This document shows positions 1,981 to 60,159 of a stretch of DNA of 64,000 nucleotides, piece by piece. A program made the translations under genes and the position numbers. The stretch comes from Okeania sp. SIO1I7 (lineage in GTDB: Bacteria > Cyanobacteriota > Cyanobacteriia > Cyanobacteriales > Microcoleaceae). The notes under the pieces were generated by a model, which worked only from the letters and a program-made list of their open reading frames with translations, made no database searches and was not told where the DNA came from. The stretch lies in contig JAAHGF010000008.1 in assembly GCA_010672585.1 (NCBI GenBank), positions 692,998 through 756,997 on the forward strand, read 5' to 3'. The number at the start of each line of letters is the position of its first letter. Positions within the stretch are counted from its first letter, which is position 1.

Positions 1981-2558
1981 CGAATAATTAATAATTAATA
2001 ATTAAGGCGTTGCTGAATTAAAGTATGAATGCGCGATTGTTTGGTTCTCGCCTTCGCCCCCGCGCATCCCCCATCGTTCAAAAGCGAAGCATCCTCTGGC
2101 TTCCCCCGATCCTGCGGGGGACGGGAGGGGGATTCCAAGGGGGACTTTTAGAGTTTTATTCCCCCCAAAATTGGGGGGCTAGGGGGGCAAAATCATACCC
2201 AGAATCAGCAACGCCTAATTAATAATTAATAATTAAATAATTCGCGCCTTGAAGCCTCCCCTTTTAAGGGGAAAAAAGCGGTCGAGGGATGGCGAGGTCC
2301 CCTCGCCATATCCAATCGACCAAGACAGCGGTCGTTTGCTTTTGCTTCGCAAAACTGGCGTAACGCAACGCTGTCGCGTTTCGCGTCAGCGGAACGGAGT
2401 TCTCTCTTCGGAGCGCACCCGTTGGGTGGGATGGCGAGGTCTTTTCGCCATATCCAATCGACTCCTGTGAAGAAATAATATTTCCTTATATTCAATTCCG
2501 TAGCGGTTAAAACCCGAGGTAATTATCAATTATCCATTATCAATTATCAATTAATGAA
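1981..2558 (+). mobile_element. TTAC-targeted non-autonomous element, copy 1 (IS200/IS605-like ends)
   Basis: The element starts CGAATAATTAATAATT just after a TTAC tetranucleotide and ends ...TTAATGAA. Comparison with the uninterrupted gene at 811-1554 fixes both borders and shows no target-site duplication. Inside are ATTAATA heptads, a CCCCTT-TT-AAGGGG hairpin near the left end, two copies of a GGCGAGGTC..CGCCATATCCAATCGAC block, and ATTATCC/ATTATCA heptads at the right end. It has no open reading frame of its own. A second element (2006-2215) is nested in the left heptad array. Insertion 3' of TTAC without duplication is the known behaviour of IS608-type Y1 transposases; the assignment is inference. 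Confidence 0.75.
2006..2215. mobile_element. MITE with GGCGTTGCTGA terminal inverted repeats, copy 1
   Basis: Perfect termini GGCGTTGCTGA...TCAGCAACGCC enclose about 190 bp rich in C and G runs (CCCCC.., TTGGGGG). It is nested in the ATTAATA array of the TTAC element, where TAATTAA flanks both ends. Two further copies lie at 30515-30780 and 31147-31294, each with a clear 8-bp target duplication. It codes for nothing convincing. A DDE-type transposase supplied in trans is the usual explanation. Confidence 0.85.
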
Positions 2559-2654
2559 GATGGTTGGAGTTATTACTATCATAATATTTAACAAAATCAA
2601 GTATTTTTGAGTCAGGAAATCTGGTATTATTTATGATTGGAATCCTTAAAAATA

Positions 2655-2757
2655 GTGAGGGTTGATAATTATATAATTACTTTAAGCCTTTAATCTCCCC
2701 CACTCCCCCACTCCCCTACTCCCAACTATACAATAACTATTCAACCGGATTCTATAT
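2655..2757. repeat. ATATAGAATCCGGTT-family element (partial)
   Basis: This holds an 8-bp-period run of CTCCCCCA/CTCCCCTA and ends AACCGGATTCTATAT. The same layout is seen at 47303-47434, where both inverted ends are present, and in reverse-like arrangement at about 42075-42191. The left terminus is not clear in this copy. It lies just downstream of the lysozyme stop codon. Confidence 0.5.
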
Positions 2758-2772
2758 GATTGGTGCATTGAC

Positions 2773-3324
2773 TCAATGTAAGGGTTTCAAGATTACTGCC
2801 ATAGGGTCAAATAATCCTAATCCAGCTAGAGATGATAATTCACTATTGCTGATGAAATTATTGCTTAAAAAAAGATTTTTTTCATCATCCCGACGGTCAA
2901 CTAAACTAGGTAGTATTGTTTTTACCCCATTAACCATAACCTGGTTCCATTTGGGAAATTCATTAGCAGCACTTTGATAATCTCCTTGATTGATTTTTTC
3001 TAGCAAAGTGCTATATTTAAATGTAGTAATTCCTACGTTATAACAGAAAGATATTAAAGCATCAAACTGGTTTTGGGCAAGAGAAACTTTAATTAATTGA
3101 TTAACTTCATCAGTAACTTTATCGATTTTATATTGAAGGAATTTTCTGGCTTGCTGTATGCTAATTTCATCTCCTTGTTTGACCTTTTTACCATCAGGAT
3201 ATTCGGTATTTCCATAACCAATACTCCATATTTCTACTGAGTTTAGATAAGCATCAAGATATAATCCTTCCCATTTTTTGATTAGATTTAGGCAGTTTTG
3301 TGATATTGTTAGTAGAACTTGCAT
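2773..3324 (-). CDS. GH24 (T4-type) lysozyme-like protein with altered catalytic residues
   Basis: This 183-aa protein has the GH24 (phage-type lysozyme) layout: Glu19 in KKWEGLYLDAY, then WSIGYGNTEY at 33-42, then the family's ISFCYNVG-like helix in the middle (here ALISFCYNVGITTF). Family members cleave peptidoglycan with an E-D-T triad. By spacing from Glu19, the Asp position is Asn28 (AYLNSVE) and the Thr position is Ser34, so the triad reads E-N-S. Activity may be lost or reduced, or the protein may only bind wall polymer. There is no signal peptide. Its neighbour in the same orientation is the C39-like peptidase and its broken copy. It could be a captured phage gene. Confidence 0.8.
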   Translation of the reverse strand: MQVLLTISQNCLNLIKKWEGLYLDAYLNSVEIWSIGYGNTEYPDGKKVKQGDEISIQQARKFLQYKIDKVTDEVNQLIKVSLAQNQFDALISFCYNVGITTFKYSTLLEKINQGDYQSAANEFPKWNQVMVNGVKTILPSLVDRRDDEKNLFLSNNFISNSELSSLAGLGLFDPMAVILKPLH

Positions 3325-3365
3325 TATTTGACTCCTGTAAAATAGTAAAAATAGATTAGTTTTGG

Positions 3366-3509
3366 GTAAGCATTTAGCTATTAGCTGTCAGCTATCAGCA
3401 ATAAGACTCAGCTTTTTTAGTAGGCTCTAATTTAGGGTTAATTAATAAGACTGTTATCTAAAACCAAAAATAATAGCTGATGGCTAATGGCTGACGGCTG
3501 AATGCTTAC
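3366..3509. mobile_element. GTAAGCATTCAGC inverted-repeat element, copy 1
   Basis: The ends GTAAGCATTTAGC...GCTGAATGCTTAC face each other over 144 bp, with CAGCTAT-type heptads next to each end and a TTAATAAGACTGTTATCTAAAACC core. The same core and end are seen alone at 56596-56670. It is non-coding. The rest of the gap up to 3954 holds no recognisable gene. Confidence 0.75.
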
Positions 3510-3954
3510 ATTGTTGGAATAGGTTAATTAGAATAGTTTGTCTCTCAACCTTGTTCCATTACAAATAATCATAGCTAAGGTTTATTTGCTCTAAAAAAAA
3601 TTTGCATTTAATTGCACATTTGATTTTGAACTACCCTCAAAAATCATTCCACAATTGTCAATGTGTATTTTTTTGCACGTTCAGGGTAGGAACATTATTT
3701 TTTGTGTCAATTAATTCACATTGTCGTATTTTGTCCAGAAATATCTTAAGATTAAGTATCAGCAAATTTCTAGAAGAAGGAAGAAGGAAAAAGTGGATGA
3801 GGGTACTGAAAAGTTGTCGCAACTCTCGACGAGACCCTAATCAATTGTAAACACTGTGTAGACAGTATGGTATTAAACCCATAAAGAAAAAGATGAATAT
3901 ATATTAGCTACTATATAGCAATCCTAAATGATTTGTAAAAAATAGAAAAATAAA

Positions 3955-4138
3955 GTAAGCATTCAGCCGTCAGCCATCAGCTATCAGCTATTGCTTTTAG
4001 TTTAGGAGAAAAGCTTTATTAATTGTCTTACGACAAAAGTTGCCTCCTTTGCCCTTAAAGTCTATTTTAGTTTAAACACTGTCCTTAAAAGAAACACTCT
4101 TGTTGCTGATAGCTGACGGCTAATAGCTGAATGCTTAC
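3955..4138. mobile_element. GTAAGCATTCAGC inverted-repeat element, copy 2
   Basis: It is 184 bp long, with ends GTAAGCATTCAGCC and AGCTGAATGCTTAC and heptad CAGCTAT/CAGCCAT runs inside. It is flanked by A/T-rich sequence (AAATAAA on the left, AAAATAAA on the right), so a target duplication cannot be judged. Bases 4139-4444 downstream contain a CCCCGCCTTTTAAGGCG palindrome and AACTTCTGACTTCTGACTTC heptads, then the promoter region of the next gene. I see no gene there. Confidence 0.75.
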
Positions 4139-4444
4139 AAAATAAATAAAAACTATGAAGCTCTTATCAAAATAACATGGGTCTAAAACCCCGCCTTTTA
4201 AGGCGCAATATTTTTGGATAGTTGCTCACGCATCCCCGTTACAAAAATAACTTCTAACTTCTGACTTCTGACTTCTGACTTCATTAACTATGTTGCCTAT
4301 TTCCTAATTCTCAGATTTTTTTTCAGAACATATTTAGGATTACTTATAGTCTGAATATTATCACTTTTCATCCCTTGACGCTGTAAAAGTCCGTAAGTTA
4401 TCTTCATATCAATAACCAGAGAGACTGAAGCTTGAATAAAAATT

Positions 4445-5740
4445 ATGAATAAAGAAATATTTGACCACATTTACTCTCATTTGCCAGAAAATGAAAAACA
4501 AATACTGCACTTGCGTTTATCAGATAAAAAATATCAACAAATTGCTCAGATAATGAATTGTGACCAATCTAATGTAGGTCGAAAATTAAAAGCGATCGCT
4601 ACTAAATTCAACTATTCAGAATCTAGTCTGGAGCGGGAAGAATATTTAGTGAAAATATTCAGCCAATATAAACCCGATCTAGTTAGTAATGAGTTACGGA
4701 ATTATTATGGTTTTCATATCACTCAAGTTGTTATTCCTGGTAGACCAGAAAAATTAGATTCTCCTTTTTATATACAACGTTATCGAATTAGACGTTGTTC
4801 TGTGGAGTCTGAATGTTACGGAGAAATAGAAAAACCAGGTTCTTTAGTAAGAATAAAAGCACCTAAAAAAATGGGTAAAACTTCTCTAATTCAACGAATA
4901 CAAGCCAAAGCTAATCAAAATAATTATATTCCTGTTTATCTGAGATTTGACACTCTGATTGAACCCCAAAATATCAGCAAGATTAATAGTTTCATCAAAG
5001 CATTCAATAAAAATATAAAAAGTCGATTTACTGATGCGCCAGAGGGAAATTCCTGGGATGATGATAATGCAAAAATATCTTGTACTCAAGAATTGAAAGC
5101 CTTGTTATTTCATTTAGAAAAAAAACTCGTTTTACTATTAGATGAAGTCGATGAAATTTTTAACTACCCAGAAATATCTAAAAACTTTTTTGCCATGTTA
5201 AGAAGTTGGTACGAAGAAAGTAATAATTTTGAAATTTGGGGAAATCTCAGAATGGTAATTGCTTATTCCACAGAATATCATGGCAAATTAGATATTTATC
5301 AATCTCCTTTTAATGTAGGTTTACCCATAGAATTAAAAGAATTTACATCAGAGCAGGTAACTCAATTAATATATTTACATCAACTTGACCCAGAAATAGT
5401 GACTCCTTTAATGTCTATGGTGGGAGGACATCCTTATCTAATCAGATTAGCATTATACAAAATGTTTCAAGATGAATTGACAATTGAAGAACTATTAAAA
5501 TATGCTCCTACTGAAAGTGGAATTTATCAAGAACATTTAAGTAGACATTTAGAAACTATGGCAGAAAAATCAAACATCAAAGCAGTTTTTCAGGAAATAT
5601 TAAAAGCTAATTCTCCAGTGCGTTTACCTAATAAAAATCGAGAAGTACATCAATTAGAAGCTATGGGATTAATTACAATTAAAGGTGATTATGCTCAACC
5701 TCGTTGTAATTTATATAGACAGTATTTTCAGGAGCGGTGA
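4445..5740 (+). CDS. AAA-like ATPase (AAA_35 type) with N-terminal HTH
   Basis: This is a 431-aa cytoplasmic protein. Residues 5-55 (PENEKQILHLRLSDKKYQQIAQIM..) resemble a sigma-70 region-4-type helix-turn-helix. A P-loop ATPase follows: Walker A in KAPKKMGKTSLIQRI (about 138-152) and Walker B LVLLLDEVDEIF (about 230). The second half contains the GHPYLIRLALY motif typical of the cyanobacterial AAA-like (AAA_35) family. These STAND-like ATPases are common in filamentous cyanobacteria and are thought to be signalling switches; substrates are unknown. A second AAA_35 protein, fused to CHASE2, lies 700 bp downstream on the same strand. The start ATG follows an A-rich leader without an obvious ribosome site. 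The downstream 70 bp are 7-bp repeats. Confidence 0.75.
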   Translation: MNKEIFDHIYSHLPENEKQILHLRLSDKKYQQIAQIMNCDQSNVGRKLKAIATKFNYSESSLEREEYLVKIFSQYKPDLVSNELRNYYGFHITQVVIPGRPEKLDSPFYIQRYRIRRCSVESECYGEIEKPGSLVRIKAPKKMGKTSLIQRIQAKANQNNYIPVYLRFDTLIEPQNISKINSFIKAFNKNIKSRFTDAPEGNSWDDDNAKISCTQELKALLFHLEKKLVLLLDEVDEIFNYPEISKNFFAMLRSWYEESNNFEIWGNLRMVIAYSTEYHGKLDIYQSPFNVGLPIELKEFTSEQVTQLIYLHQLDPEIVTPLMSMVGGHPYLIRLALYKMFQDELTIEELLKYAPTESGIYQEHLSRHLETMAEKSNIKAVFQEILKANSPVRLPNKNREVHQLEAMGLITIKGDYAQPRCNLYRQYFQER

Positions 5741-5741
5741 G

Positions 5742-5808
5742 AAGAAGGAGTCAGGAGATGGAAGAAGGAGTCAGGAGACAGGAGTCAGGAGACAGGAGAT
5801 GGAAGAAA
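5742..5808 (+). repeat. 7-bp repeat array (GGAGTCA/GGAGACA)
   Basis: Imperfect tandem 7-mers (GGAGTCA, GGAGACA, GGAAGAA) directly follow the stop codon of the AAA gene. The complementary array (CTCCTGT/CTCCTGA) occurs at about 6358-6400 on the other side of the broken S23 gene, so the two arrays form a loose inverted pair around it. Confidence 0.7.
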
Positions 5809-5862
5809 GAGTTAGAATTATGCTTTTTGGAACCTAGTTTCAAGAAGGAGTTAACAGTCAGA

Positions 5863-6136
5863 ATGAAAAGAGAACCTGCGAAAAACTTTCGAGATTTAAT
5901 AGTTTGGCAAAAAGCACATCAACTTGTTTTAGAAGTCTATCGTTTTAGCAGCAATTTCCCCAAAACAGATTTTTGAATATTGCACAAGGTTCATTAGAAG
6001 AAAAGAAGAAAGTCGGTATTACCTAATTCTAGCAAATGACCTTGAATATCAATATACTTCAAAAGTTATATTGCATCTCAAAGAAGTAAGTAAACTATTA
6101 GATTCATATATAAACGTCATTGAAAAACCCAGGTAA
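5863..6136 (+). pseudogene. Broken four-helix bundle (S23/IVP-type) gene
   Basis: It starts MKREPAKNFRDLIVWQKAHQ, the start of the small four-helix bundle family (TIGR02436, once called 23S rRNA intervening sequence proteins; roughly 115-125 aa). After FPKTD a deletion joins out of frame to FLNIAQGSLEE (TTTTTGAATATT at about 5968). A further frame change leads to ESRYYLILANDLEYQY and a normal-looking end with stop at 6134-6136. About 40 codons of the middle are missing. So both ends of the gene are present but it cannot make the normal protein. No rRNA is nearby. Confidence 0.75.
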
Positions 6137-6143
6137 TCTCTCA

Positions 6144-6345
6144 TACCAATTTGAAAAAAAATACTATAGTTAAGTGCTACTTCAATTATTAAGTAATTAA
6201 CACAGACTGAATAACTTTTTTGATAATTAGCACCCTAGTTATTGTTAATTATTCTTATGTTTAATTCCCCTCCTGGGAGGGGGAGGGGATAGGGGTGGGT
6301 TCCCCGCAATGCGAAAATGTAGCAAACATTTATAACGTTGGTATA
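6144..6345. mobile_element. ATACCAATTT-type inverted-repeat element
   Basis: It starts ATACCAATTTGAAAAAAAAT and ends in inverted form with ACGTTGGTATAAT. A CCCCTCCTGGGAGGGGGAGGGG hairpin block sits inside. Related ends occur at 16848, 28273, 37860 (inverted) and 46974-47166. There is no coding potential. The remaining gap up to 6446 is the CTCCTGT/CTCCTGA heptad array and an AT-rich promoter region for the CHASE2 gene. Confidence 0.55.
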
Positions 6346-6446
6346 ATACCTAATACCTCTTCCTCCTGTCTCCTGACTCCTGTCTCCTGACTCCTTCTTC
6401 AACTGATTCCTTCTAAAAAAACACCAATTAAATTATTTAAAAAATC

Positions 6447-8774
6447 ATGAATTATCAATCAACTGGGGGGAGTTTATCAGCAAATAATCCCACTTATGTA
6501 GTCAGAAAACAAGATGGAGAATTATCCCAAAAACTCCAAGCAGGAGAATATTGTTATGTATTTAATGCTCGTCAAATGGGTAAGTCTAGTTTGCGGGTAA
6601 GAGTGATGAAAGAATTACGCTCTCAAGGTTGTCAATGTATCCCAATTGACATGACTAGATTATGTGATTTTTCAATAGAAAAACAATCTTGGTATGAGGG
6701 GTTTTTCAGAGAAATATTTTATGGATGTGAGTTAGATAATAGTATCAATTATCAACAGTGGATAATCAGTAATCAAAATTTGACGAATCTTCAACGTTTT
6801 GCTCAGTTTATTGAAGAAATTTTATTTGTTAATTTTCCTAATCCTCAAAAGATATATATTTTTCTTGATGAAATTGATGTACTGGTAAATTGCCCTTTTA
6901 AAAATGAAATTTTAGCTTTTATTCGCTCTTGTTATAATCGTCGTGCTGAAGATGAAAAATCTGATTATCATCGTCTAATTTTTTGTTTTTTTGGGGTAGC
7001 AACTCCGGAGGATTTAATTAGAGATGGAAAACATACTCCTTTTAATATTGGTCATCCAATTGAATTAACAGAGTTAACTTTTGCAGATGGAAAAATATTA
7101 ACTCAGGGATTAGATGGAATAGTAGAAGCACCGGAAGTTGTTTTGCAAAAAGTTTTTGATTGGAGCGGAGGTCAACCTTTTTTAACTCAAAAAATTTGTC
7201 AAATTATTGTTGATTATGCAGATGATTCTGAACCAGATGTTGATAAGTTGGTAGAGGAACATATTTTAACTTATTGGGAAGAACAAGATAATCCCACTCA
7301 TTTAAAATATATGCACGATTATTTGGTCAATCATGGTCAATTTGCTCATCAATTACTGAAATTATATAAAAAAATTCTCTTGCAAGGAGAAGTTAAAGCT
7401 GATGATAGTCCAATCCAAATGGCTTTGCGTTTGTCTGGTGTAGTTATTAAAAAACAGGATAAATTGGTGATTTTTAATAAAATTTATCGGACAATTTTTA
7501 ATCTAGATTGGGTTGCGGAAAAATTAGCTTATTTAGAAAGTAATCTAGAGCCACCTCAAACTCAACCTCAAAAATTGAGAATGAGTGTAATTTTTGCTGG
7601 TTTAGCATGGGTTGGAGTTGTTAGTTTTAGAAGTTTAGGTTGGCTACAAAATTTAGAGTTAAATGAGTACGACCGCTTAATGCGATGGCGACCTCCAGAA
7701 CAGCCAGACCCTAATATTTTAATTGTTGAAGCTACGGCAAAAGATATTAATAAATATGGTATTGGTAGCGATCTAAGTGATGAAATTTTGGCTGAAGTAA
7801 TAGCTAAGTTAGAAAGTCATCAACCTACAATTATCGGTTTAGACTTTTGGCGAGAAAAACCTTTACCTTCTGAATCTGGTTATAGAAAGTTATTAAAAAT
7901 TTTGAGTAATAATCAGAAAATAGTTGCTGTTTGTAGTGCTAGTGAATATCACAACAATAAACCTGGTACTAAACCTCCTCAAGGAGTGCCAGAAAAACGT
8001 TTAGGTTTTACTGATGTTGTTATCGATTATGGTCAAGTTGATATCCTCCGTCGCCATTTAATGTTTATGGGAAAAGAAGAGAAAGACCCTTGTAAAACAA
8101 GTTATTCATTAAGTGCTAGGGTTGCTTTTAATTATTTGGAAAGTCAAGGAATTAAACTAGAGTTTACTTCAAGTAGAAGTATTAGAAATATTGAAGTTGG
8201 TGATGTTGTTTTTAAGGAGCTTGTGGAAAGACAAGGTATTTATCAAAAAGTTAATGCTGGTGGGTTTCAAGTTTTACTTAATTATAGAAATTCCGATAAA
8301 ATTGGTAAATATATTAGTGTCTCGGATGTATTGTCTGGGAATTTTGATGATTTTTTAGTGAGAGATAAAATTGTACTTATTGGTAGTACAGACCCTAATA
8401 ATGCTAGTGATAAATTTTATACTCCTTATAGTTATGTTGAAGCTGTTTCTCAGAAGAAAATGCCTGGGGTTGTTTTACAAGCGCATCAGGTTAGTCAAAT
8501 TATTAGTGCGGTTTTGGATGATAGACCTTTAATGACGTTTTGGAGTTGGTGGGTAGAGTGGTTATTGATTTTTTTTTGCTCTGGTGTGGGTGTTTTAGTG
8601 GGTTTGCGTTTTCGTCGAATTTTATTGTTTTTCTTATCTATAGGAGGAAGTATTATTATTTTATATTCAGTTAGTTTGTTTTGTTTTACTCAAGGTTTTG
8701 TGTTGCCTTTAGTGCCGTCTATTTTGGCATTTGTGATTAGTGGTATTGGTGTTTTATTGGTTAATATTCAGTAG
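6447..8774 (+). CDS. AAA-like ATPase fused to CHASE2 sensor and three membrane helices
   Basis: This is a 775-aa protein. Residues 1-370 form an AAA_35-type ATPase: Walker A NARQMGKSSLRVRV (about 41-54), Walker B IYIFLDEIDVLV (about 138-149) and the WSGGQPFLTQKICQ motif (about 238-251). A single hydrophobic helix (about 380-400) leads into a CHASE2 extracellular sensor (about 400-690: YDRLMRWRPP, IIGLDFWRE, VRDKIVLIGST). Three C-terminal membrane helices follow (about 695-775), the standard CHASE2 exit. In most CHASE2 proteins a kinase or cyclase follows these helices. Here the protein simply ends with TAG, so the AAA domain at the N-terminus is the only candidate output. It is probably a membrane receptor; the ligand is unknown. 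Confidence 0.8.
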   Translation: MNYQSTGGSLSANNPTYVVRKQDGELSQKLQAGEYCYVFNARQMGKSSLRVRVMKELRSQGCQCIPIDMTRLCDFSIEKQSWYEGFFREIFYGCELDNSINYQQWIISNQNLTNLQRFAQFIEEILFVNFPNPQKIYIFLDEIDVLVNCPFKNEILAFIRSCYNRRAEDEKSDYHRLIFCFFGVATPEDLIRDGKHTPFNIGHPIELTELTFADGKILTQGLDGIVEAPEVVLQKVFDWSGGQPFLTQKICQIIVDYADDSEPDVDKLVEEHILTYWEEQDNPTHLKYMHDYLVNHGQFAHQLLKLYKKILLQGEVKADDSPIQMALRLSGVVIKKQDKLVIFNKIYRTIFNLDWVAEKLAYLESNLEPPQTQPQKLRMSVIFAGLAWVGVVSFRSLGWLQNLELNEYDRLMRWRPPEQPDPNILIVEATAKDINKYGIGSDLSDEILAEVIAKLESHQPTIIGLDFWREKPLPSESGYRKLLKILSNNQKIVAVCSASEYHNNKPGTKPPQGVPEKRLGFTDVVIDYGQVDILRRHLMFMGKEEKDPCKTSYSLSARVAFNYLESQGIKLEFTSSRSIRNIEVGDVVFKELVERQGIYQKVNAGGFQVLLNYRNSDKIGKYISVSDVLSGNFDDFLVRDKIVLIGSTDPNNASDKFYTPYSYVEAVSQKKMPGVVLQAHQVSQIISAVLDDRPLMTFWSWWVEWLLIFFCSGVGVLVGLRFRRILLFFLSIGGSIIILYSVSLFCFTQGFVLPLVPSILAFVISGIGVLLVNIQ

Positions 8775-8832
8775 TTAATATTAGCGAGTTATATCATGTC
8801 CGCTTGAATACTTATACTTTATTGGAAGGAAC

Positions 8833-9355
8833 TTCATTAATTGATAATTGATAATGGATAATTGATAATTACCTCGGGTTTTAACCGCTACGGAATTGAA
8901 TATAAGGAAATATTATTTCTTCACAGGAGTCGATTGGATATGGCTCTGAGACCTCGCCATCCCACCCTTCGGGAAGCTGCGCTAACGACCGCTGTCTTGG
9001 TCGATTGGATATGGCGAGGGGACCTCGCCATCCCTCGACCGCTTTTTTCCCCTTAAAAGGCTATGCTTTATAAACATTTTTCTTAACATAAAACTTGACA
9101 AAGTAGACAAGTTATGTAGAAGTTTTTAACAGGTTTTTGTCAGAGAAAAAGTGTATTTAAATGTACGTTTTTTTTGATAACTTAAGTAGTTTTTCTTATC
9201 TACTATGATTCTTTATCCTTTCTCCCCTGCTCCCTACTCCCCTACTCCCCTAATTCCCACAAGGTTTTCAGGAGTTCCTGATAAGGGATAGCTTAAAAGG
9301 GTCGGCTTCAAGGCGCGAATTATTTAATTATTAATTATTAATTATTAATTATTCG
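8833..9355 (-). mobile_element. TTAC-targeted element, copy 3 (reverse orientation, with nested insertion)
   Basis: On the minus strand the element starts CGAATAATTAATAATT right after TTTAC (9356-9360 complement) and ends TTAATGAA at 8833. Its body (GGTAATTATCAATTATCC, CGGTTAAAACCCGAGG, ATATCCAATCGAC blocks, CCCCTTTTTTCCCC) matches copy 1 at 2226-2558. It is interrupted at 9061-9291 by another element with a 9-bp target duplication. It lies between the CHASE2 gene and the HAD gene. Confidence 0.8.
9061..9291. mobile_element. 231-bp element nested in the TTAC element
   Basis: It is flanked by the direct repeat CTTAAAAGG (9052-9060 and 9292-9300), which in the uninterrupted relative (2255-2270) is a single CCTTTTAAGG site. 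Ends are CTATGCTTTATAAAC and GATAAGGGATAG, weakly inverted. The interior (CTTGACAAAGTAGACAAG, AACTTAAGTAGTTTTTCTTATCTAC, CTCCCTACTCCCCTA) is matched in reverse complement by 38955-39135. It is non-coding. Confidence 0.75.
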
Positions 9356-9706
9356 GTAAAGGGCGGTTATACTGCTATGCTGAGTCGATATTTAAAATTT
9401 TAGTCAACAGGTACAAGAGAAGATTATCAATACCTGACTTCCAGGTATAATTCACTTTTATGAACAATTTTATAGTTTCAAATTAATCAAATTATGGTAA
9501 ATTTAAAAAAGTTTATTATCTTTTCTTTTCTGGGTTTAATACCCCACCGTCAACGAAGGTGTTTAAAATTGCTTGGGGTTTGTAGACACAAAGTGGCGTG
9601 TCGAAGACTATCCCCATGTGATTTTTCCCTCTGCCTTCTGCCTTATTCAAGGTCATTTGAATCAAATTATTTTTTCGAGCAAAACTATTATGGAGATGCA
9701 AAATTA

Positions 9707-10393: not shown

Positions 10394-10414
10394 TTTGTTA
10401 AAATTATAGTTATA

Positions 10415-10585
10415 TTGAAAAATGTTGCATTAGTAGGAAAAGGTCGTTTACTACTATTGCTAGACAATTCAGAAACAGCAATCACTTTACTACAAATTGC
10501 CATGGCGATCGCCTATGAAAAAAATTATGAAATAGAATGCTTACAAGTAATATTAGTACCATTTAATTCTTCTTATTATTTATAG
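10415..10585 (+). pseudogene. Fragment of a ClC-linked universal-stress (USP) domain gene
   Basis: A 56-residue frame reads VALVGKGRLLLLLDNSETA..., then IAYEKNYEIECLQVILVP, ending in TAG. It aligns with the first strand, helix and second strand of the first USP domain of the ClC protein encoded at 11141-13861 (GNGRLLVPLSNPSTA... RNYELECVQVVIVP). There is no good start codon and the rest of the domain is absent. It is best read as the remnant of a duplicated ClC/USP gene, possibly left when intervening DNA was lost. Confidence 0.65.
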
Positions 10586-16754: not shown

Positions 16755-16775
16755 TGGGATTTGGCTAAAGCTTTG

Positions 16776-19330: not shown

Positions 19331-19341
19331 GGTCAGTAAAT

Positions 19342-26309: not shown

Positions 26310-26482
26310 ACCTTCATTTCAGTTATCAGTTATCAGTTATCAGTTATCAGTACCTTTTTTTATCTCCTTAAAAGAGGAGGCGTAACTACTCAATTTTTCG
26401 GTCAATGGGTGCGTTGAAAAATGTTTAGGGTTTTAATTAGAGGTAATTATCCATTATCCATTATCCATTATCCATTAATGAA
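26310..26482. repeat. TCAGTTA heptads and right end of a TTAC-type element
   Basis: TCAGTTA 7-mers run at 26319-26350. Bases 26436-26482 (GAGGTAATTATCCATTATCC...TTAATGAA) are the right end of the TTAC element family. At 26390-26402 ATTTTTCGGTCAA looks like the inverted left end of another member. So this spacer between DUF1822 and the sigma-like gene probably holds two partial copies. Confidence 0.6.
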
Positions 26483-30514: not shown

Positions 30515-30780
30515 GGCGTTGCTGAATTGAAGTATGAATGCGCGATTGTTTGGCTCTAATCAAGCCCCCGCGCATCCCCCATCGTTCAAAAGCGAAGCAT
30601 CCTCTGGCTTCCCATCCTTCAAATGCGCAGCATCCTCTGGCTTTCCCCCTTCCCAAGGGGGACGGGAGGGGGATTTCCAAGGGGGACGGGAGGGGGATTC
30701 CAAGGGGGACTTTTAGAGTTTTATTCCCCCCAAAATTGGGGGGTAGGGGGGCTTGCATCATACCCAGAATCAGCAACGCC
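30515..30780. mobile_element. GGCGTTGCTGA MITE, copy 2, with 8-bp target duplication
   Basis: It is 266 bp with perfect ends GGCGTTGCTGA/TCAGCAACGCC. AGTCGCCA flanks it on both sides (30507-30514 and 30781-30788). The interior repeats a GGGGGACGGGAGGGGGATTC unit. The flanking sequence, with the element removed, is itself repeated at 31118-31450, giving an internal reference. Confidence 0.9.
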
Positions 30781-30994
30781 AGTCGCCATTACTGTATTTG
30801 ACTTATGAAATAGCTCAAACAGCAGAATATTACTAATCAAGCTTTTTTCTTATTCCTTCTTCTCTCTTTCTTCTTCTATTATATAAAAGGAAACCTCAAC
30901 CTCTTTCGCATCAACATATATCTGATTGATTAGAGGTTATGCACAAAAAAAACTCGGTTAATTTCAGTAACCGGGTTTCTAATTTTATAGATAT

Positions 30995-31146: not shown

Positions 31147-31294
31147 GGCGTTGCTGAATTGAAGTATGAATGTGTGATTGTTTGGTTCTGGTAAGCCCCC
31201 TAAATCCCCCAAAATTGGGGGACTTTTAGAGCTTTATTCCCCCCAAAATTGGCTTGCTCGGGGGGCTTGCATCATACCCAGAATCAGCAACGCC
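31147..31294. mobile_element. GGCGTTGCTGA MITE, copy 3, with 8-bp target duplication
   Basis: It is 148 bp with the same perfect ends as copies 1 and 2. GACTTATG flanks it on both sides (31139-31146 and 31295-31302). The homologous, uninserted sequence at about 30798-30810 reads TTGACTTATGAAATAG with a single GACTTATG, which proves the duplication. Confidence 0.9.
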
Positions 31295-31328: not shown

Positions 31329-31425
31329 CGAATAATTAATAATTAATAATTAATAATTAATAATTAAATAATTCGCGCCTTGAAGCCTCCCCTTTTAAGG
31401 TAATTATCCATTATCCATTAATGAA
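31329..31425 (+). mobile_element. TTAC-targeted element, copy 2 (97-bp minimal form)
   Basis: It follows GATATTAC and runs CGAATAATTAATAATT... through CGCGCCTTGAAGCCTCC, then directly to the right end GGTAATTATCCATTATCC..TTAATGAA. The homologous empty site at about 30824-30840 reads AATATTACTAATCAAGC, so the borders are exact and no bases are duplicated. It keeps only the two ends of the longer copies. Confidence 0.85.
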
Positions 31426-38195: not shown

Positions 38196-38318
38196 CCTAA
38201 TTAATAATTAATAATAATTAATTATTAATTATTAATTATTAATTATTAATTAACAATTACCTCTGCTTGAAAAGAAGAGGATTGATGCGGTAGGGAAAAT
38301 TTTTTCTCTCCTTTATCG
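38196..38318 (-). mobile_element. TTAC-targeted element, copy 4 (subfamily B)
   Basis: On the minus strand it starts CGATAAAGGAGAG right after CTTAC (38319-38323 complement), passes CGCATCAATCCTC and CAGAGGTAATT, and ends in ATTAATT-type heptads. The interior matches the copy at 59937-60050 (GAGTCAATCCTATCC, GAGAGGTAATT). The exact right end is uncertain. TTCTTCC heptads follow at 38326-38370, just before the 2H phosphoesterase gene. Confidence 0.6.
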
Positions 38319-39135: not shown

Positions 39136-39163
39136 GTAGATCATAACCATTTTAGGGAAAGGT

Positions 39164-39202
39164 AATTATCCATTATCCATTATCCATTATCCATTAATGA
39201 AA
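39164..39202 (+). mobile_element. Right end of a TTAC-type element overlapping a start codon
   Basis: GGTAATT followed by ATTATCC heptads and the terminal CCATTAATGAA is identical to the right ends at 31401-31425 and 26441-26482. The ATG of the EamA gene (39197-39199) lies inside this terminus. No left end is visible nearby. Confidence 0.7.
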
Positions 39203-51062: not shown

Positions 51063-51110
51063 GGAACGTTAGCGGAGCTTATCCGTTAGGATAAACCCAA
51101 CACAGACTGA
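51048..51110. repeat. GTAGGTTGGGTT/AACCCAAC hairpin repeat
   Basis: GTAGGTTGGGTTGAGGAACG and GGATAAACCCAAC form an imperfect hairpin. Related copies: 63669-63725, and shorter ones with a GCTTCGCTTAACCCAACC arm at 51247-51275 and 53004-53032. This copy supplies the end of the preceding gene. Confidence 0.7.
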
Positions 51111-51355
51111 CAACAAATTTCTGGTTTATGAAATACAGTATCATTATCTTTTCAAATAGTTTTTGAACTGTTGAATAAAGGATTCATTCTTGTTTGTCGG
51201 ATGTACTGGAATTAGTGAGCTTTATAGGAAATAGGCTGTATAATTGTTGGGTTCGCTTCGCTTAACCCAACCTACTGTAACTATAGTATTTTTACCAAAT
51301 CAATTAATTTTAATTAAACAAAACCTTGCCCTTAAAAGGGGTGTTTAAACAAAAT

Positions 51356-52768: not shown

Positions 52769-52848
52769 GTTAGTAATTATTTATTTGAGAAAATTATAGC
52801 TTTTTTTTAGGAGTTAGGAATTAGAAAATAGTTAGAGTAGTTTAATCT

Positions 52849-52958
52849 TTTACAGCATATTTCGGGCAAATGAGGTACAGGGTAAATGATGAAAATATTG
52901 TAGTGCGGGTATCTTGCCCACGATGGGTGTACCTCATAACAACAGAAAGCGCTGTAAA
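52849..52958. mobile_element. TTTACAGC inverted-repeat element in the kinase 3 leader
   Basis: Ends TTTACAGCATATT and AAAGCGCTGTAAA are inverted. The interior has AATGAGGTACAGGG..GTGTACCTCATA, itself inverted, and GGGTATCTTGCCCACG. The homologous leader of kinase 2 lacks it. Confidence 0.7.
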
Positions 52959-53045
52959 TATTTTCAAGCTTACAACAAATACATACAATAGGGTATATAA
53001 TTGTTGGGTTGCGCTTCGCTTAACCCAACCTACTAGCCACTTTTT

Positions 53046-54455: not shown

Positions 54456-54496
54456 GAATAAAAATAATAAAAATTGGCGTTGGTAAATTAGTGTAT

Positions 54497-55135
54497 CAGG
54501 ACTTAGGCAAAGGCACTATTTATAGAGTGCAAGTACTATTGGACAATAGTTATCAACGCTATATATAGCTTATTTGCGTAATTCCTATGTATGATATTAA
54601 TCTTAATTACTTAGGAGTCAACCCACCCCTACTGCGACCGTGGAGGGGAAAAAAGAAGAAGAAATCAGAATACAGGACTTAGGCAAAGGCACTATTTATA
54701 GAGTGCAAGTACTATTGGACAATAGTTATCAACGCTATATATAGCTTATTTGCGTAATTCCTATGTATGATATTAATCTTAATTACTTAGGAGTCAACCC
54801 ACCCCTACTGCGACCGTGGAGGGGAAAAAAGAAGAAGAAATCAGAATACAGGACTTAGGCAAAGGCACTATTTATAGAGTGCAAGTACTGTTGGACAATA
54901 GTTATGAACGCTATATATAGCTTATTTGCGTAATTCCTATGTATGATATTAATCTTAATTACTTAGGAGTCAACCCACCTCTAACCCCTCCCAGGAGGGG
55001 AAAAAAGAAGAAGAAATCAGAATACAGGACTTAGGCAAAGGCACTATTTATAGAGTGCAAGTACTATTGGACAATAGTTATGAACGCTATATATAGCTTA
55101 TTTGCGTAATTCCTATGTATGATATTAATCTTAAT
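54497..55135. repeat. 3.6 tandem copies of a 176-bp unit
   Basis: Units begin CAGGACTTAGGCAAAGGC at 54497, 54673, 54849 and 55025. Each carries a reverse-complement relative of the 89-bp AGGACTTACGCA element (TATTTATAGAG, GGACAATAGTTAT, GCTATATATAGC), a TATGATATTAATCTTAATTAC segment, and a CCACCCCTACTGCGACCGTGG part. The third unit has a different C-rich part (CACCTCTAACCCCTCCCAGG). The fourth stops after CTTAATT. The leading ends have lost TIR symmetry (TTAGG for TTACG). Confidence 0.9.
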
Positions 55136-55179
55136 TTAGATAAAAAAAGAACTGGAAAAAGTCTTTAAACCTCCTTTTG

Positions 55180-56601
55180 TCATAATTGACACTGGGCAGC
55201 GCGAGTAAGAATTAAGGCAAAATTTTCACCGTCGGTACTGAGGTGTCCCTTTGGAGCATCTATTGTAAACTGAAGTTCGTTATCTGAGAGGTAACCATTG
55301 TCATCCTTATCTGTTCCCGTTTTCCATCCTACGGCGATCGCGAACCGCCGCCAAGCTCGAACATCATCTCGAAAAGCTTCTAGGGTATCCCCATTCTCAT
55401 CAATTACTTGAAGTTGAGCAGTGTAGCCAAATTTGCCCTTCGATCTTTGTGTCCAAATTTGATTAATTCGCTGCAAATCTGGGCAAGAAAATTGCTCTGC
55501 TTCTGACACAGATATGTAAGAATAATCCCCATCTTGATCGCCAACTTGGTTGATTAATTGCCAATTCTGTCGATCTGCCTTCTGCCATTGCCCTTTTTCT
55601 GCCAAAGCATCTAAACTATTGTACATTGCCTCCACATCTTTCCCCTGTCCCGCTTCTATGACTCCTTTTGAGAAGATAGAAGCAACAGCCACCAAAGCAA
55701 CACTAACCAAAGCAACAATACCAGCAGCAATTCCTAAAGGTTTATAAGAAAGTGGGCGTTTACCAATATTCCTTAATTTGCCAATTACTTCATCAACAGT
55801 TTGATAACGATTTTTCCAATATTCAGCAACCATTTTATCTAGAATTCGACCTAAATCATCACTCACATTAACTTGATCTTTCCAGATAATTTCACCAGTG
55901 GATGGGTTTTCAGTAAACTGATTTACCCGCATTCCAGTTAATACTTCAATACCGATCATTCCCACAGCATAAATATCGCTACAAAATTTAGGTTTACCTG
56001 CTGCTTGTTCGCTAGGCATATATCCAGTAGTTCCCACTGCTATTGTTGTAGTTGTAAGACCTTCACTTGTCACTGTTAATCCTTTAATTTCTTTGACTGC
56101 CCCAAAATCTATTAATACAATTTTGCCATCAGATTTTCTCCGCATAATATTTTGCAGTTTTAAGTCACGATGAATTACGTTTTGCTGATGTACATATTTT
56201 AAAACCTCTAAGATTTCAATTAATAGTTTAATGGTCTCATTTTCTGTAAATATTCTTTGAGAATAAATCTCTTTTGCTAAGTCATTTCCTTCAATAAATT
56301 CTTGTACTAAATAAAATTGTCCGCCCTCTTCAAAATAGTCAAAAAAACCAGGTATTTGATTATGTTCACCAAGGTTTTGTAAGGCTTTTACTTCTTTTTT
56401 AAATAATTTTTTAGCCACTTGAAAAACTTTCGGTCGCTGGTCTGAAGGAGTTAGTTGTTTAACAACACATTGACGATGATTAGGATGGTCTATATCCGTA
56501 GCTAAATAAGTAGTTCCAAAACTACCCTTTCCTAACTCAGAGATAATTTGATAACGATGCCTAAGTATTCTGTTAGTCATTATTTTTAAGTTTGTAAGCA
56601 T
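55180..56601 (-). CDS. Ser/Thr kinase with divergent GUN4-like domain (kinase 4)
   Basis: This is a 473-aa protein. A kinase domain fills residues 15-285 (GKGSFGTTY, CVVKQL, HRDLKLQN, DFGAVKE, YMPSEQ). A membrane helix (LGIAAGIVALVSVALVAVASIF, about 291-312) follows, then a GUN4-like domain (MYNSLDALAEKGQWQKADRQNWQLI.. SCPDLQRINQIWTQRSKGKFGYTAQ.. VGWKTGTDKDDNGYL.. APKGHL). GUN4 binds Mg-porphyrins and stimulates Mg-chelatase. Fused to a kinase outside the membrane helix, it could sense tetrapyrroles (inference). An EF-hand-like DKDDNGYLSDNE stretch sits in the GUN4 part. The start could also be MTNRILRHRY eight codons later, which matches the other kinases better. Confidence 0.85.
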   Translation of the reverse strand: MLTNLKIMTNRILRHRYQIISELGKGSFGTTYLATDIDHPNHRQCVVKQLTPSDQRPKVFQVAKKLFKKEVKALQNLGEHNQIPGFFDYFEEGGQFYLVQEFIEGNDLAKEIYSQRIFTENETIKLLIEILEVLKYVHQQNVIHRDLKLQNIMRRKSDGKIVLIDFGAVKEIKGLTVTSEGLTTTTIAVGTTGYMPSEQAAGKPKFCSDIYAVGMIGIEVLTGMRVNQFTENPSTGEIIWKDQVNVSDDLGRILDKMVAEYWKNRYQTVDEVIGKLRNIGKRPLSYKPLGIAAGIVALVSVALVAVASIFSKGVIEAGQGKDVEAMYNSLDALAEKGQWQKADRQNWQLINQVGDQDGDYSYISVSEAEQFSCPDLQRINQIWTQRSKGKFGYTAQLQVIDENGDTLEAFRDDVRAWRRFAIAVGWKTGTDKDDNGYLSDNELQFTIDAPKGHLSTDGENFALILTRAAQCQL

Positions 56602-56800
56602 TCAGCTGTCAGCTATCGGCTATCAGCTATTGTTTCTGGTTTTAGATAACAGTTTTATTAACAGAAGTTATGCACGGACATAAATAAAGTGAGAGTGCCA
56701 TTCGGAGCTTTGCGGAGCGCAAATGCCAAAAGCTTGCGCATAACTATCGTTAACGCCCCTACATATGGCGTTTTCAAGATGAATCTGCGTAAGTCCTGTT
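56596..56800. repeat. Element ends upstream of kinase 4
   Basis: A single GTAAGCATTCAGCTGTCAGC end with its core (TTAGATAACAGTTTTATTAA) spans 56594-56665. It is followed by a longer AGGACTTACGCA-type element (AAGTTATGCACGG to CTGCGTAAGTCCT, 56665-56799) with internal AATGCCAAAAGCTTGCGC. No gene. The rest up to 57085 includes a TATGGGCGAATG..ATTCGCCCCTAC hairpin at 56921-56945 and the aas promoter region. Confidence 0.6.
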
Positions 56801-57085
56801 AATCTTTTACAACAGTTTCTATAGGCTAACTTTCGTTCACTTAACAATATTAAAATCGGAAATTTTGATAATTTAAGAAAGCATACATATCAATAATATC
56901 AAATGAATTAATATCTCCTGTATGGGCGAATGTTATTCGCCCCTACTTAATAAAAGCCTCATACTCTGCCAAGATAAGAGAAAATCAGTACCAGGGGTAA
57001 GTTGGTAAACTGTCCCTAAAATTAGTAAAATTGCCCAAAATTCTCACATACTAGATTTATAACCAATAGTTTTAGGAAGCAGATA

Positions 57086-59050
57086 ATGACCACATCTATA
57101 CAATCTCCCGACTCCTGGCAAATGAGCGATCGCGAACGTGCCAATCTCCAAAAAGTCACTCTCTACAACTCTGTTCAATCTCTCTCCGAAATATGGCCAC
57201 TGGCTGCCAAACATTATAATCAGACCATCGCCCTCCATGACCCTCATGCCAAACCAGAAGTCAAATTTACTTATGCAGAATTAAACGAACAGATTCAAAA
57301 ATTTGCTGCCGGTCTACAATCATTGGGAGTTGTCCCTACAGAAAATGACACATCAATACCTCCAAGAGTGGCCTTATTTGCTGACAATAGCCCTCGATGG
57401 ATGATTGCCGACCAAGGTATTATTGCTGCAGGGGCAGCAGATGTTGTGAGAAGTGGGACTGCGGATATCGAAGAATTGGCTTATATTCTTCAACATAGTG
57501 GCAGTGTGAGTTTGGTCGTGGAAAATTTGGCCTTGTTGAAAAAATTGAGCGATCGCCTACAAGACTTACCCATACATTTGATTATTCTGCTGTCTGAAGA
57601 AGACCCAAATCCTGAGGAAAGTCTACCTGTAGTTAAATTTTCTCAAGTCATTGCTACAGGAGAAGACCGCCCCCTGAAACCCACTAAGCAAAACCTGGAA
57701 ACTCTTGCTACTTTGCTCTACACTTCTGGCACAACTGGCAAACCCAAAGGTGTCATGCTGACCCATGGCAACCTGCTCTATCAAATTAATGTTCTCGGGG
57801 CACTTATTCAACCCAATCCAGGAGAATGTACCCTAAATATCTTACCTACTTGGCATACTTTTGGTAGAACAGGAGAATATTTTTTCCTCTCCCAAGGTTG
57901 TACCCAAATTTATACTAATAAACGTTCTCTCAAAAAAGACTTCCAACAATATAAACCCCACTATGTCACCAGTGTGCCTAGAGTTTGGGAATTAATATAT
58001 GAAGGGGTACAAAAACAACTCAGAGAACAACCAGCCAATAAACAAAAGTTAGCTCAATTTTTCTTAGGCGTAAGTCAACGTTATATTGAAGCTAGGCGTG
58101 TCAGTCAAGGATTAGTTTTGCAACTTGACCCACCATCTCAGTCTCAGAAATTGCTGGCTACTTTACAAAGTTGGGTATTATTACCTCTTCATCGTCTGGG
58201 AGAAAAAATCATTTATCAAAAAATCCGCCAAGCTACTGGTGGTCGCCTGAAATTTGCCATAAGTGGGGGCGGTTCTCTAGCGATGCACTTAGAAAACTTC
58301 TTTGAAATAGTCGGTATAGGCTTATTGGTAGGATATGGTTTAACCGAAACTTCTCCAGTTTTGACTGTTCGACACCATTGGAACAATCTCCGGGGGTCTG
58401 CTGGTAAACCCATTCCAGCTACTGAGATTAAAGTGGTAGATCCAGAAACTAACAAAACTCTGACAGTTGGTAATAAAGGTGTGGTTTGGGCACGAGGGCC
58501 ACAAATTATGAATGGTTATTATCAAAATCCCGAAGCTACTGAGAAAGTGATTGACTCCGAAGGTTGGTTTAATACTGGGGATATAGGTTGGATAACCCCA
58601 GAAAATGATTTGGTATTAACTGGTCGGGCAAAAGATACAATTGTTCTGACTAATGGGGAAAATATTGAACCTCAGCCCATTGAAGATGCTTGTGCCCGCA
58701 GTCAATATATTGACCAAATTATGCTAGTGGGGCAAGACCAGAAATTTTTGGGTGCTTTAGTCGTGCCTAATATTGAAGCAGTGGAACAATGGGCTATTCA
58801 ACTCAATCCTTCAGAATCTCAACCACAGATTGATTGGGAAAGTCAGACCATTCAAGAATTGTTCCGCCAGGAATTGAATCGGGAGGTAAAAAATCGCCCC
58901 GGATATCGGCCCGATGACCGTATTGGACCTTTTCGCTTGATTCTGGAACCGTTTACGGTAGAAAATGGCATGACAACCCAAACGATGAAGATCAAACGTC
59001 CCATTGTCACGGACCATTACCGCGATATGATTAACAAGATGTTTGATTGA
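57086..59050 (+). CDS. aas: Long-chain acyl-ACP/acyl-CoA synthetase
   Basis: This 654-aa protein is an AMP-forming adenylating enzyme. Motifs: P-loop-like YTSGTTGKPKGVMLTHGNL (about 212-230), LPTWHTFGRTGEYFF, GYGLTETSPVL (about 421-431), NTGDIGW and GRAKDTIVLTNGENIEPQPIE. Its N-terminus and length match the cyanobacterial acyl-ACP synthetase (slr1609-type), which reactivates free fatty acids released from membranes using ATP. Whether acyl-ACP or acyl-CoA is the product cannot be read from sequence. A ribosome site AGGAAG lies about 10 bases before the ATG. It is transcribed toward ylqD and pdhC but separated from them by repeats. Confidence 0.9.
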   Translation: MTTSIQSPDSWQMSDRERANLQKVTLYNSVQSLSEIWPLAAKHYNQTIALHDPHAKPEVKFTYAELNEQIQKFAAGLQSLGVVPTENDTSIPPRVALFADNSPRWMIADQGIIAAGAADVVRSGTADIEELAYILQHSGSVSLVVENLALLKKLSDRLQDLPIHLIILLSEEDPNPEESLPVVKFSQVIATGEDRPLKPTKQNLETLATLLYTSGTTGKPKGVMLTHGNLLYQINVLGALIQPNPGECTLNILPTWHTFGRTGEYFFLSQGCTQIYTNKRSLKKDFQQYKPHYVTSVPRVWELIYEGVQKQLREQPANKQKLAQFFLGVSQRYIEARRVSQGLVLQLDPPSQSQKLLATLQSWVLLPLHRLGEKIIYQKIRQATGGRLKFAISGGGSLAMHLENFFEIVGIGLLVGYGLTETSPVLTVRHHWNNLRGSAGKPIPATEIKVVDPETNKTLTVGNKGVVWARGPQIMNGYYQNPEATEKVIDSEGWFNTGDIGWITPENDLVLTGRAKDTIVLTNGENIEPQPIEDACARSQYIDQIMLVGQDQKFLGALVVPNIEAVEQWAIQLNPSESQPQIDWESQTIQELFRQELNREVKNRPGYRPDDRIGPFRLILEPFTVENGMTTQTMKIKRPIVTDHYRDMINKMFD

Positions 59051-59454
59051 AATAGCAGTCAGCACTTCAGCGGTCAGCGGTCAGCTCTCAAGGTGTATGA
59101 TGGGGAATTCAAACCCCCAGAATACTCACACCACTAATTTTTCAAATATAGTGGGGGACGCCGAACCTGCCGATTTTAGCTGTTAACGCAGTTCCTCTGT
59201 AAGAGGCTAGCTGAAGAGCTGATAGCTTGTTAATATAGCAACCGCCTTGGCGGTTAGGACTTATGCGGATGATGAACCTCAGACAGGGAAATGTTTTCCT
59301 CACTATCCCAAGTTTCATGTTCCTTGTTCCCTGCTATATTGGGGATTTTAGATTTTGGATTGAGTATCATCCAGATTTTCTGCAATCTTAAAGTCTAAAA
59401 TCAATATTCTCGCCTTTATGTACAAACAAAAATAAACTGACAAGAACAACTTTT
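59051..59454. other. Spacer with reverse copy of the 10.8-kb repeat
   Basis: Bases 59100-59190 (GGGGAATTCAAACCCCC, TTTTTCAAATATAGTGGGGGACGCCGAACC) correspond in part in reverse complement to 10765-10845. CAGCGGTC heptads lie at 59066-59090. I see no gene. Confidence 0.45.
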
Positions 59455-59904
59455 ATGGAGTATTCTCAAACACAATTACTTTTAAAGCGAGCGATTAACG
59501 TTAGAGTAGTCGTTACCCCACGCTGGAAAGAAGAAGCCCAACAACAACTACAAACCCAAATTAATAATTTAGATAGCCAATTACAACAGATTGAAATACA
59601 AGGGCAAAAGGCAATTGCTGAAATTAGAAAGCAAAGTGTACAGCCTCCAGGTCCTCAAGTACAACAGCAAATTAATAATATACAAGCACAGATCAGCCAA
59701 AAGAAAAATGAGTTTGTAGAGCAGAAAAATCAAGCTTTACAACAATTACAACAAGTACAAACTTTGGAATTAGAGCAAGAAGTTAGTCAAGGTCAAATTG
59801 AAAGTGTATTTACTGCAGATGTAGGAGATAATTTGATCAAGAAAATGCAAGTAGAAGTTCTCCTGCGTGATGGGGTAATTGAAGAAGTGCGAGGTGAGGT
59901 TTAG
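59455..59904 (+). CDS. YlqD-family coiled-coil protein
   Basis: This 149-aa protein is dominated by a long coiled coil (residues 25-115) very rich in Gln (EEAQQQLQTQINNLDSQLQQ). It is framed by beta strands at the start (LLLKRAINVRVVVTP) and at the end (FTADVGDNLIKKMQVEVLLRDGVIEEVRG). This is the pattern of YlqD proteins in Firmicutes and cyanobacteria, function unknown. In several cyanobacteria, as I recall, it is found near the PDH E2 gene, as here (490 bp upstream of it). The ATG follows GGAG-poor AT-rich sequence. Confidence is fair because the layout at both ends fits. Confidence 0.7.
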   Translation: MEYSQTQLLLKRAINVRVVVTPRWKEEAQQQLQTQINNLDSQLQQIEIQGQKAIAEIRKQSVQPPGPQVQQQINNIQAQISQKKNEFVEQKNQALQQLQQVQTLELEQEVSQGQIESVFTADVGDNLIKKMQVEVLLRDGVIEEVRGEV

Positions 59905-59936
59905 AGGGAAAAAAAAGAAGGTTTGAAGAATTTAGA

Positions 59937-60050
59937 ATTTAGAATTTAGAATTTAGAATTACCTCTCCTTTAAAACGGATAGGATTGACTCAAAGGAAAT
60001 TTTTTCTTTTGATCCCCTTAAAAGGGGAGGCTTTATACCACAATTTTTCG
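59937..60050 (-). mobile_element. TTAC-targeted element, copy 5 (subfamily B)
   Basis: On the minus strand it starts CGAAAAATTGTGGTATAAAG immediately after TTAC (complement of 60051-60054), contains the CCTCCCCTTTTAAGGGG hairpin, then GAGTCAATCC and GAGAGGTAATT, and ends in AATTCTA heptads. The interior matches 38196-38318. The exact right end is uncertain. Confidence 0.65.
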
Positions 60051-60159
60051 GTAAGGTGTTAGGTAGTAGGTAGTGGACTCAGCAAAAAAGAGGGTCTCAA
60101 GCCTCCCCTAAATAAACTTCAGTATTTCAAGCCTCTGGCTTTAGCCGGAGGTACTGTTA

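Follow-up and report, generated by a model that had tools for sequence, protein, structure and literature searches.

A 64,000-nucleotide stretch of the Okeania sp. SIO1I7 genome (contig JAAHGF010000008.1, positions 692,998 to 756,997; hereafter the window) contains several copies of a short, gene-less repeat that is inserted directly 3′ of TTAC without duplicating its target, here called family A. These repeats are very probably non-autonomous derivatives of IS608-type IS605 elements, comparable to the elements known as PATEs. A first-pass annotation of the window had proposed, from five copies, a non-autonomous family moved by such a Y1 enzyme, and this idea is now supported by insertion at TTAC, absence of target duplication, guide sequences like those of IS608 and the presence of tnpA-bearing relatives in the same genus. 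The family is large: its exact left end, TTACCGAATAATT, occurs 412 times in the 9.48-Mb, 109-contig assembly (0 for a reversed-pattern control), with no strand preference (211 forward and 201 reverse, counted by contig strand rather than by direction of replication). It matches 16 of the 29 genomes searched, the window's own included, with 348, 339, 171 and 375 copies in four other genomes of the genus, 135 in G016, 61 in G011 and 0–3 in the rest; among the matches listed, named records sharing the left end are mostly Okeania, together with Hydrocoleum, a Microcoleaceae and one Crocosphaera.

All five copies named by the first-pass annotation start with CGA(A/T) directly 3′ of TTAC, as read at each copy. 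In 230 loci fetched without a TTAC pattern, TTAC precedes 37 of 40 starts of the form CGAATAATTA(A/G), the others being GTAC, TTAT and AATC; on each strand of the window, TTAC makes up about 0.45% of positions. Both uninterrupted counterparts described earlier were confirmed in the window, and a target duplication was found in none of the filled/empty pairs. The site of copy 1981 (copies are named by the position of their first base) is empty in all four same-genus genomes, with the left and right flanks abutting at the exact junction, and copy 31329 has an empty site in both G003 and G004, with two uninterrupted versions of its repeat in G002. G002 carries copy 9355, and no match to the right flank of this copy was found in the three remaining stretches compared; the site of copy 38318 is filled at L282, L285 and L287; and the site of copy 60050 is too diverged for comparison in the two same-genus relatives other than G002 and G003.

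Extending the comparison to 215 left ends yielded 33 filled/empty rows, in 13 of which, representing eight copies, TTAC closes the compared sequence itself; the other 20 end differently and are mostly other repeats or registers. In seven of the eight copies (L020, L024, L027, L036, L078, L150 and window copy 1981), the right junction agrees with an exact empty site in one row or more, some of the compared empty sites being other copies of a repeat, and the eighth (L140) has no alignment at the junction. The right ends of the fitting copies are TTAATGAA and TTGTTGAA, with TTAATCAA in L036. As for IS608-type elements, insertion thus takes place 3′ of a fixed short target and leaves no target duplication.

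A typical family A copy consists, on its left, of TTAC followed by CGAATAATT, optional heptads, a box, a guide, CC and the left hairpin and, on its right, beyond a body of variable length, of CAAT, a right hairpin ending in GAGG, TAAT, heptads and TGAA. The left guide-hairpin region occurs as 81 distinct strings, 59 of which belong to the commonest loop class; over these 59 sequences and five stem positions, 85.4% of the pairs are Watson-Crick or G·T, compared to 51.5–63.1% after sliding of the partner. At the third position, 35 sequences pair C with G and 18 pair T with A. Sub-terminal hairpins are thus present at both ends, scored on the left and read by eye on the right in intact copies, where the hairpin appears weak in several subtypes. 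At 115 of the 138 right ends that read TGAA, a CAAT is found on the 5′ side of the right stem foot. Folding of the whole element as single-stranded DNA is weak evidence, with z-scores of −2.6 for a composed copy-like sequence and −1.2 for copy 60050, which 25 of 200 shuffles match. The right end TTAATGAA, given previously as the terminus of the family, is the commonest but not the only one, as it accounts for 75 of 184 parsed right ends, followed by TTGTTGAA (20), TTATTGAA (14), TTAATCAA (2) and a remainder of other or mis-parsed ends. Although TCAA also occurs within the right heptads of many copies, TGAA is the end in most validated cases. In many copies the left heptads (AATAATT) are the reverse complement of the right ones (AATTATT), generating an imperfect inverted terminus; apart from this, the traits of PATEs are present, namely near-terminal palindromes, lack of duplication and a length too short for a transposase.

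The four guide bases 5′ of the left hairpin tend to vary with the target. Among 168 family A left ends at TTAC, the guide is AAAG in 58, GAAG in 53, TGCG in 11 and TTAG in 7, with others making up the rest. In a sister family of the same genome, family B (at least 46 matches, from 40 of 778 candidates scored), 30 loci read by eye comprise seven target/guide combinations of the type TGAC/CAAG, six TTAC/AAAG, one TCAC/GAAG (L264) and one GCAC/GAAG (L255), along with five exceptions, all at TGAC (GAAG in L261, ATAG in L257, TTAG in L259, CCAG in L276 and CAAC in L258), and ten loci with no readable left end at the expected place. On the right, the family B cleavage site reads TGAC in 29 of 43 ends; CAAG guides in 15 of 32 right ends decide little.

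Target and guide covary as guide pairing predicts, with many exceptions. This was seen in 92 left ends, kept by pattern from a table of 166 rows in which the automated guide reading is noisy or out of register, a few of the kept rows also resembling chance hits. Mutual information between cleavage base 2 and guide base 1 (0.338) is the highest of 16 position pairs, and these bases are Watson-Crick partners in 56 of the 92 ends; none of 2000 permutations reaches either value. Cleavage base 4 and guide base 4 form C-G in 73 of 92, with too little variation to be informative (the Watson-Crick count is equalled or exceeded in 58 of 2000 permutations). The 74 dropped rows include chance hits, the GCAC/GAAG end of L255, in which the varying pair agrees with the rule, and eight left ends from IS605 elements in other genera that read TTAT/AAAA and also follow the pairing rule, their putative cleavage sites being set by position and not from empty sites. 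Guide tetranucleotides match cleavage sites in the manner of IS608, with covariation at one pair and many exceptions.

These features suggest how the elements may move. On single-stranded DNA, a hairpin would fold near each end, and the four guide bases 5′ of each hairpin would pair with the corresponding cleavage site; the left site, TTAC, would stay in the target, and the right one, usually TGAA, would belong to the element. A Y1 (HUH) TnpA acting in trans could cut after both sites, circularise the ends and insert the element 3′ of the next TTAC; because of the circle and of insertion 3′ of TTAC, no duplication would arise and excision could seal the site cleanly. Of the two large families, A combines TTAC and AAAG-like guides on the left with TGAA and CAAT on the right, and B often has TGAC/CAAG on the left and TGAC on the right; the linkers that separate the cleavage site from the hairpin or guide lengthen and shorten by whole heptads.

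This heptad stepping is pronounced in family A. Between the right stem (GG) and TGAA, the spacing is a multiple of seven in 115 of 143 right ends, with 21, 28, 35 and 42 commonest, and left linkers span 16 bases or exceed this by approximately whole heptads: those of GAAG left ends have a length of 4 modulo 7 in 51 of 53 cases, and those of AAAG left ends measure 16 in 24 cases, then mainly 31, 38/39 and 45. Seven-step lengths of family B right ends were discarded as evidence, being imposed by the search pattern itself. Heptad sequence varies among copies (AATTATT, ATTATCC, TATCAAT, TTCTAAA), and heptad number differs between the orthologous copies L005, L198 and L202. It is fairly likely that the heptads are passive, produced by polymerase slippage in AT-rich linkers unpoliced by selection and playing no role in transposition. 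The variable runs of the three orthologs favour such an origin, as do the many heptad arrays of the window that lie outside TTAC elements, the 75 of 77 sampled TAACTGA arrays of other cyanobacteria that lack the element's end and a proposal, reported by MacGregor 2015 (PMC4679880) citing Mrazek 2007, that 7 nt corresponds to the polymerase contact; the 115 of 143 TGAA linkers divisible by seven speak against it and are compatible with a functional spacing rule. Other arrays of the window, of the AAGAAGG, AGGAGTC, GAAGTCA, AGGGAAT and CCTTCTG types, are numerous, and no element ends are visible in them by eye. A further repeat, which starts with GGG or GGC, contains TTGC and ends near AGCAAGCCCTAATTA, lies inside TAATTA heptads of family A copies L005, L061, L067, L068 and L198, as if it targeted them.

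The right-end linkers of family B consist of TAACTGA heptads. Direct repeats of this unit have been reported in Beggiatoaceae, cyanobacteria and Bacteroidetes, with a proposed regulatory role and the remark that "no mechanism is evident" for their transfer (MacGregor 2015, PMC4679880), and three-unit arrays were found in 30 of 292 cyanobacterial genomes sampled here. Within the window's genome, the first ten arrays listed on one contig, which include two near-identical neighbours and two members of the family B set, run directly into AATGAC (7), AATTAC (1), AATGGC (1) or AATCAG (1), mostly with the family B hairpin foot before them; judging from this context, all ten look like right-end linkers. 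In other sampled cyanobacterial genomes AATGAC follows 2 of 77 arrays (L295 and L369), two of the 77 being the same place. With ten of ten in one genome and 2 of 77 elsewhere, the link holds for the window's genome; the idea that cyanobacterial heptad arrays generally derive from such elements was rejected on this count, many arrays of the window also being of other kinds. Among 67 arrays of at least two units in loci fetched for other purposes, 32 have TGAC at their end, one has TTAC and nine have a looser form, whereas none of the features sought is present in 11.

A complete insertion sequence (IS) with matching ends and tnpA, for which the first-pass annotation suggested a search, was not found in the window's genome with the patterns searched, and left ends similar to those of the families adjoin tnpA at three loci of the same genus. 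L192 (G003) has open, divergent tnpA and tnpB genes, with TTAC followed by CAGAAAATTGGGTTTAAAGCCTCCCCC at the tnpA 3′ end; L189 (G001) has an open tnpA and a broken tnpB, with TTAC followed by CGGAAAATTGGGTTTAAAGCC; and L219 (G001) is a tnpA fragment at the edge of a contig, sharing 91% identity with L192 TnpA over 66 residues, with TGAC followed by CGAAAAAGCGGGTCTCAAGCC. Putative target and guide read TTAC/AAAG at L192 and L189 and TGAC/CAAG at L219; at L169, from another genus of the same family (G008), the target is TGAC and the guide reads differently. Enzymes 80–91% identical to L192 TnpA thus adjoin both TTAC/AAAG and TGAC/CAAG left ends, as in families A and B. Going by its sequence, L192 would end on the right in GAAT, a hairpin and TCAA. 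L192 TnpA scores 126.6 bits with the NCBIfam IS200/IS605 family transposase model (cut-off 55) and matches the sequence of the ISHp608 TnpA structure 2a6m with an E-value of 5.7e-17. Its clade was not found in the window's genome; order-wide, 74 of 148 genomes match L192 TnpA at E 1e-20.

Locus L005, where an element abuts the 3′ end of tnpA, was considered as an autonomous copy and rejected, since L198 and L202 are orthologs of this site and the element does not include tnpA. At L206 (1034–1200), a left end is closely followed by sequence resembling the 3′ end of tnpB, perhaps a core-deleted IS605 element, and around position 19331 of the window, on the minus strand, TGAC followed by CGGAAAATTGGGTCTTAAACCTCGCCC resembles the left end of a decayed IS605 element.

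Several observations weigh against the interpretation of families A and B as IS608-type derivatives. No movement of the elements has been observed, and three of the five window copies (9355, 31329 and 38318) are damaged or interrupted. The uninterrupted sites of copy 60050 read TAAT (G002) and TATC (G003) instead of TTAC, and right ends with TCAA paired with a CAAT guide occur (L036 and copy 60050). Guides mismatched to TTAC are frequent, as the GAAG ends have T·G at the varying pair and the TGCG and TTAG ends deviate as well; 36 of the 92 left ends are not Watson-Crick at that pair, and the permutations overstate independence because the copies are related. As to the enzyme, the ten Y1 loci of the window's genome show no left end of the element beside tnpA with the patterns searched (0/10), the elements flanking L005 and L217 are separate insertions or distant from tnpA, and the best match to L192 TnpA in this genome is 43% identical.

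Other explanations fare less well. That the copies are not mobile, having spread by recombination between repeats or arisen as assembly artefacts, is hardly credible: draft genomes, nested repeats and empty sites located in other repeat copies leave some room for it, but independent assemblies in which the orthologous positions are exact empty sites contradict it. Nearly as improbable is an identity as REP-like repeats that a REP-associated tyrosine transposase (TnpAREP) mobilises. Two Y1 matches do lie in longer, diverged frames (L006, 255 aa, 68.4 bits; L007, 210 aa, 35.1 bits), but L192 TnpA, which passes the IS200/IS605 model, fails the REP model (26.1 bits against a cut-off of 80), as do the L189 and L169 enzymes. 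REPs carry a GTAG tag, and GTAG is not among the tallied guides. The mover may be a lost or unassembled L192-type enzyme; the alternative, that an IS605-type TnpA resident in this genome but from a different clade (L001, L002, L003 or L004 type) acts in trans, seems unlikely, though far less so than the two previous explanations. L001–L004 are among the full-domain Y1 proteins of this genome, in which the L192 clade was not found, and copies 1981 and 31329, absent from the compared relatives, imply movement after the split and hence an enzyme in this lineage. On the other hand, the flanks of L001–L004 show no ends of the element on visual reading or in pattern searches, unlike the flanks of L192, L189 and L219, and an IS bordered by repeats may be missing from a 109-contig assembly.

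The copies recognised in the window are listed below.

Family A and family B features of the window and associated sequences (window coordinates)
Feature	Position	Strand	Details
Uninterrupted counterpart of copy 1981	1472..1483	+	GCATTAC-GATGG, in a similar stretch nearby
Family A copy 1981	1981..2558	+	TTAC at 1977-1980; right end TTAATGAA
Internal parts of copy 1981	left hairpin ~2255-2272; right heptads ~2519-2550	+	Left heptads also present
Different small element nested in copy 1981	2006..2215	+	GGCGTTGCTGA...TCAGCAACGCC
Family A copy 9355	8833..9355	-	TTAC at 9359-9356; right end TTAATGAA; nested insert splits left hairpin
Family B copy	26313..26400	-	TGAC at 26404-26401; TAACTGA-type heptads in right end
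Family A right end without recognised left end	26440..26482	+	GAGGTAATTATCC...TTAATGAA
Uninterrupted counterpart of copy 31329	30827..30838	+	ATATTAC-TAATC
Family A copy 31329	31329..31425	+	97 bp after TTAC; left hairpin joined to right linker
Family A copy 38318	38196..38318	-	TTAC at 38322-38319; 5′ half of left hairpin lost
Family A right end without recognised left end	39150..39201	+	AAAGGTAATTATCC...TTAATGAA
Family A copy 60050	59923..60050	-	TTAC at 60054-60051; both hairpins; TTCTAAA heptads; end TTCTTCAA

Comparison with the uninterrupted sites of G002 and G003 places the end of copy 60050 at TTCTTCAA, followed by ACCTTC, so that the end assigned previously (59937) is 14 bases short. 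The 97-bp copy had been taken as a minimal form of the family; it is the single full-length match among at least 63 obtained with it as a query (a lower bound, as 40 of 772 candidates were scored), and it probably arose by an internal deletion, as its structure suggests. The right end of copy 38318 is uncertain, being fused to another repeat, and the right limit of the family B copy, which reads TGAA, is putative. Other small elements sit inside copies 1981 and 9355. That of copy 1981 belongs to a small inverted-repeat element (GGCGTTGCTGAATT...ATCAGCAACGCC) also located at 30515-30780 and 31147-31294; that of copy 9355 (CTATCC...GCATAG) is flanked on both sides by CCTTTTAAG and is missing from the ortholog L281, which is otherwise the same copy.

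A broader reading, tentative and in our judgement doubtful, is that single-strand transposons of this genus have been naturally re-aimed by joint change of guide and target (TTAC/AAAG, TGAC/CAAG and TCAC/GAAG, with TTAT/AAAA in related IS605 elements), that the linkers are true spacers tolerated only as multiples of seven and that their spread seeded heptad-repeat families. Independently of it, several hundred single-strand transposon ends in one genome constitute a natural data set that gives direct access to guide-target pairing, to the mismatches tolerated and to linker length; the TAACTGA repeats of the window's genome, as one heptad class, are recast as likely transposon ends; and the elements offer ready test pieces for naturally re-aimed TnpA systems. 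The literature covered, on IS608 retargeting, PATEs and REPs, mostly at the level of titles and abstracts and with few subscription papers, describes neither heptad-stepped IS605-derived elements nor such families in Okeania. Gene-less IS605 derivatives and guide pairing are already known; what is new, as far as seen, is their combination, scale and natural re-aiming.

In IS608, the left cleavage site and guide are TTAC and AAAG, and the right ones TCAA and GAAT (PMC5934647). The elements described here resemble it in inserting 3′ of TTAC, in having a guide 5′ of the hairpin base and in using AAAG in 58 of 168 TTAC left ends; they differ in carrying no genes, in mostly having TGAA with CAAT on the right, in their long heptad linkers and in the existence of sister copies with TGAC/CAAG and TCAC/GAAG. 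The L192-type IS605 elements share a similar left end and have the IS605 layout of divergent tnpA and tnpB, but carry genes and have short linkers without heptads. For TAACTGA repeats, the heptad is the same as that of the family B linkers, and the regulatory role proposed by MacGregor stands beside a likely identity as transposon ends here. A further parallel is with the PATEs of Haloquadratum, IS605-related elements with near-terminal palindromes, no transposase and no target duplication, of which 177 and 194 were counted in two strains (PMC3119063), and which have also been observed in some cyanobacteria (PMC4853749). Compared to these, the present families stand out by 412 exact left ends in one genome, heptad-stepped linkers and covariation of guide and target, features unmentioned for PATEs in the accessible parts of that report (PMC3119063).

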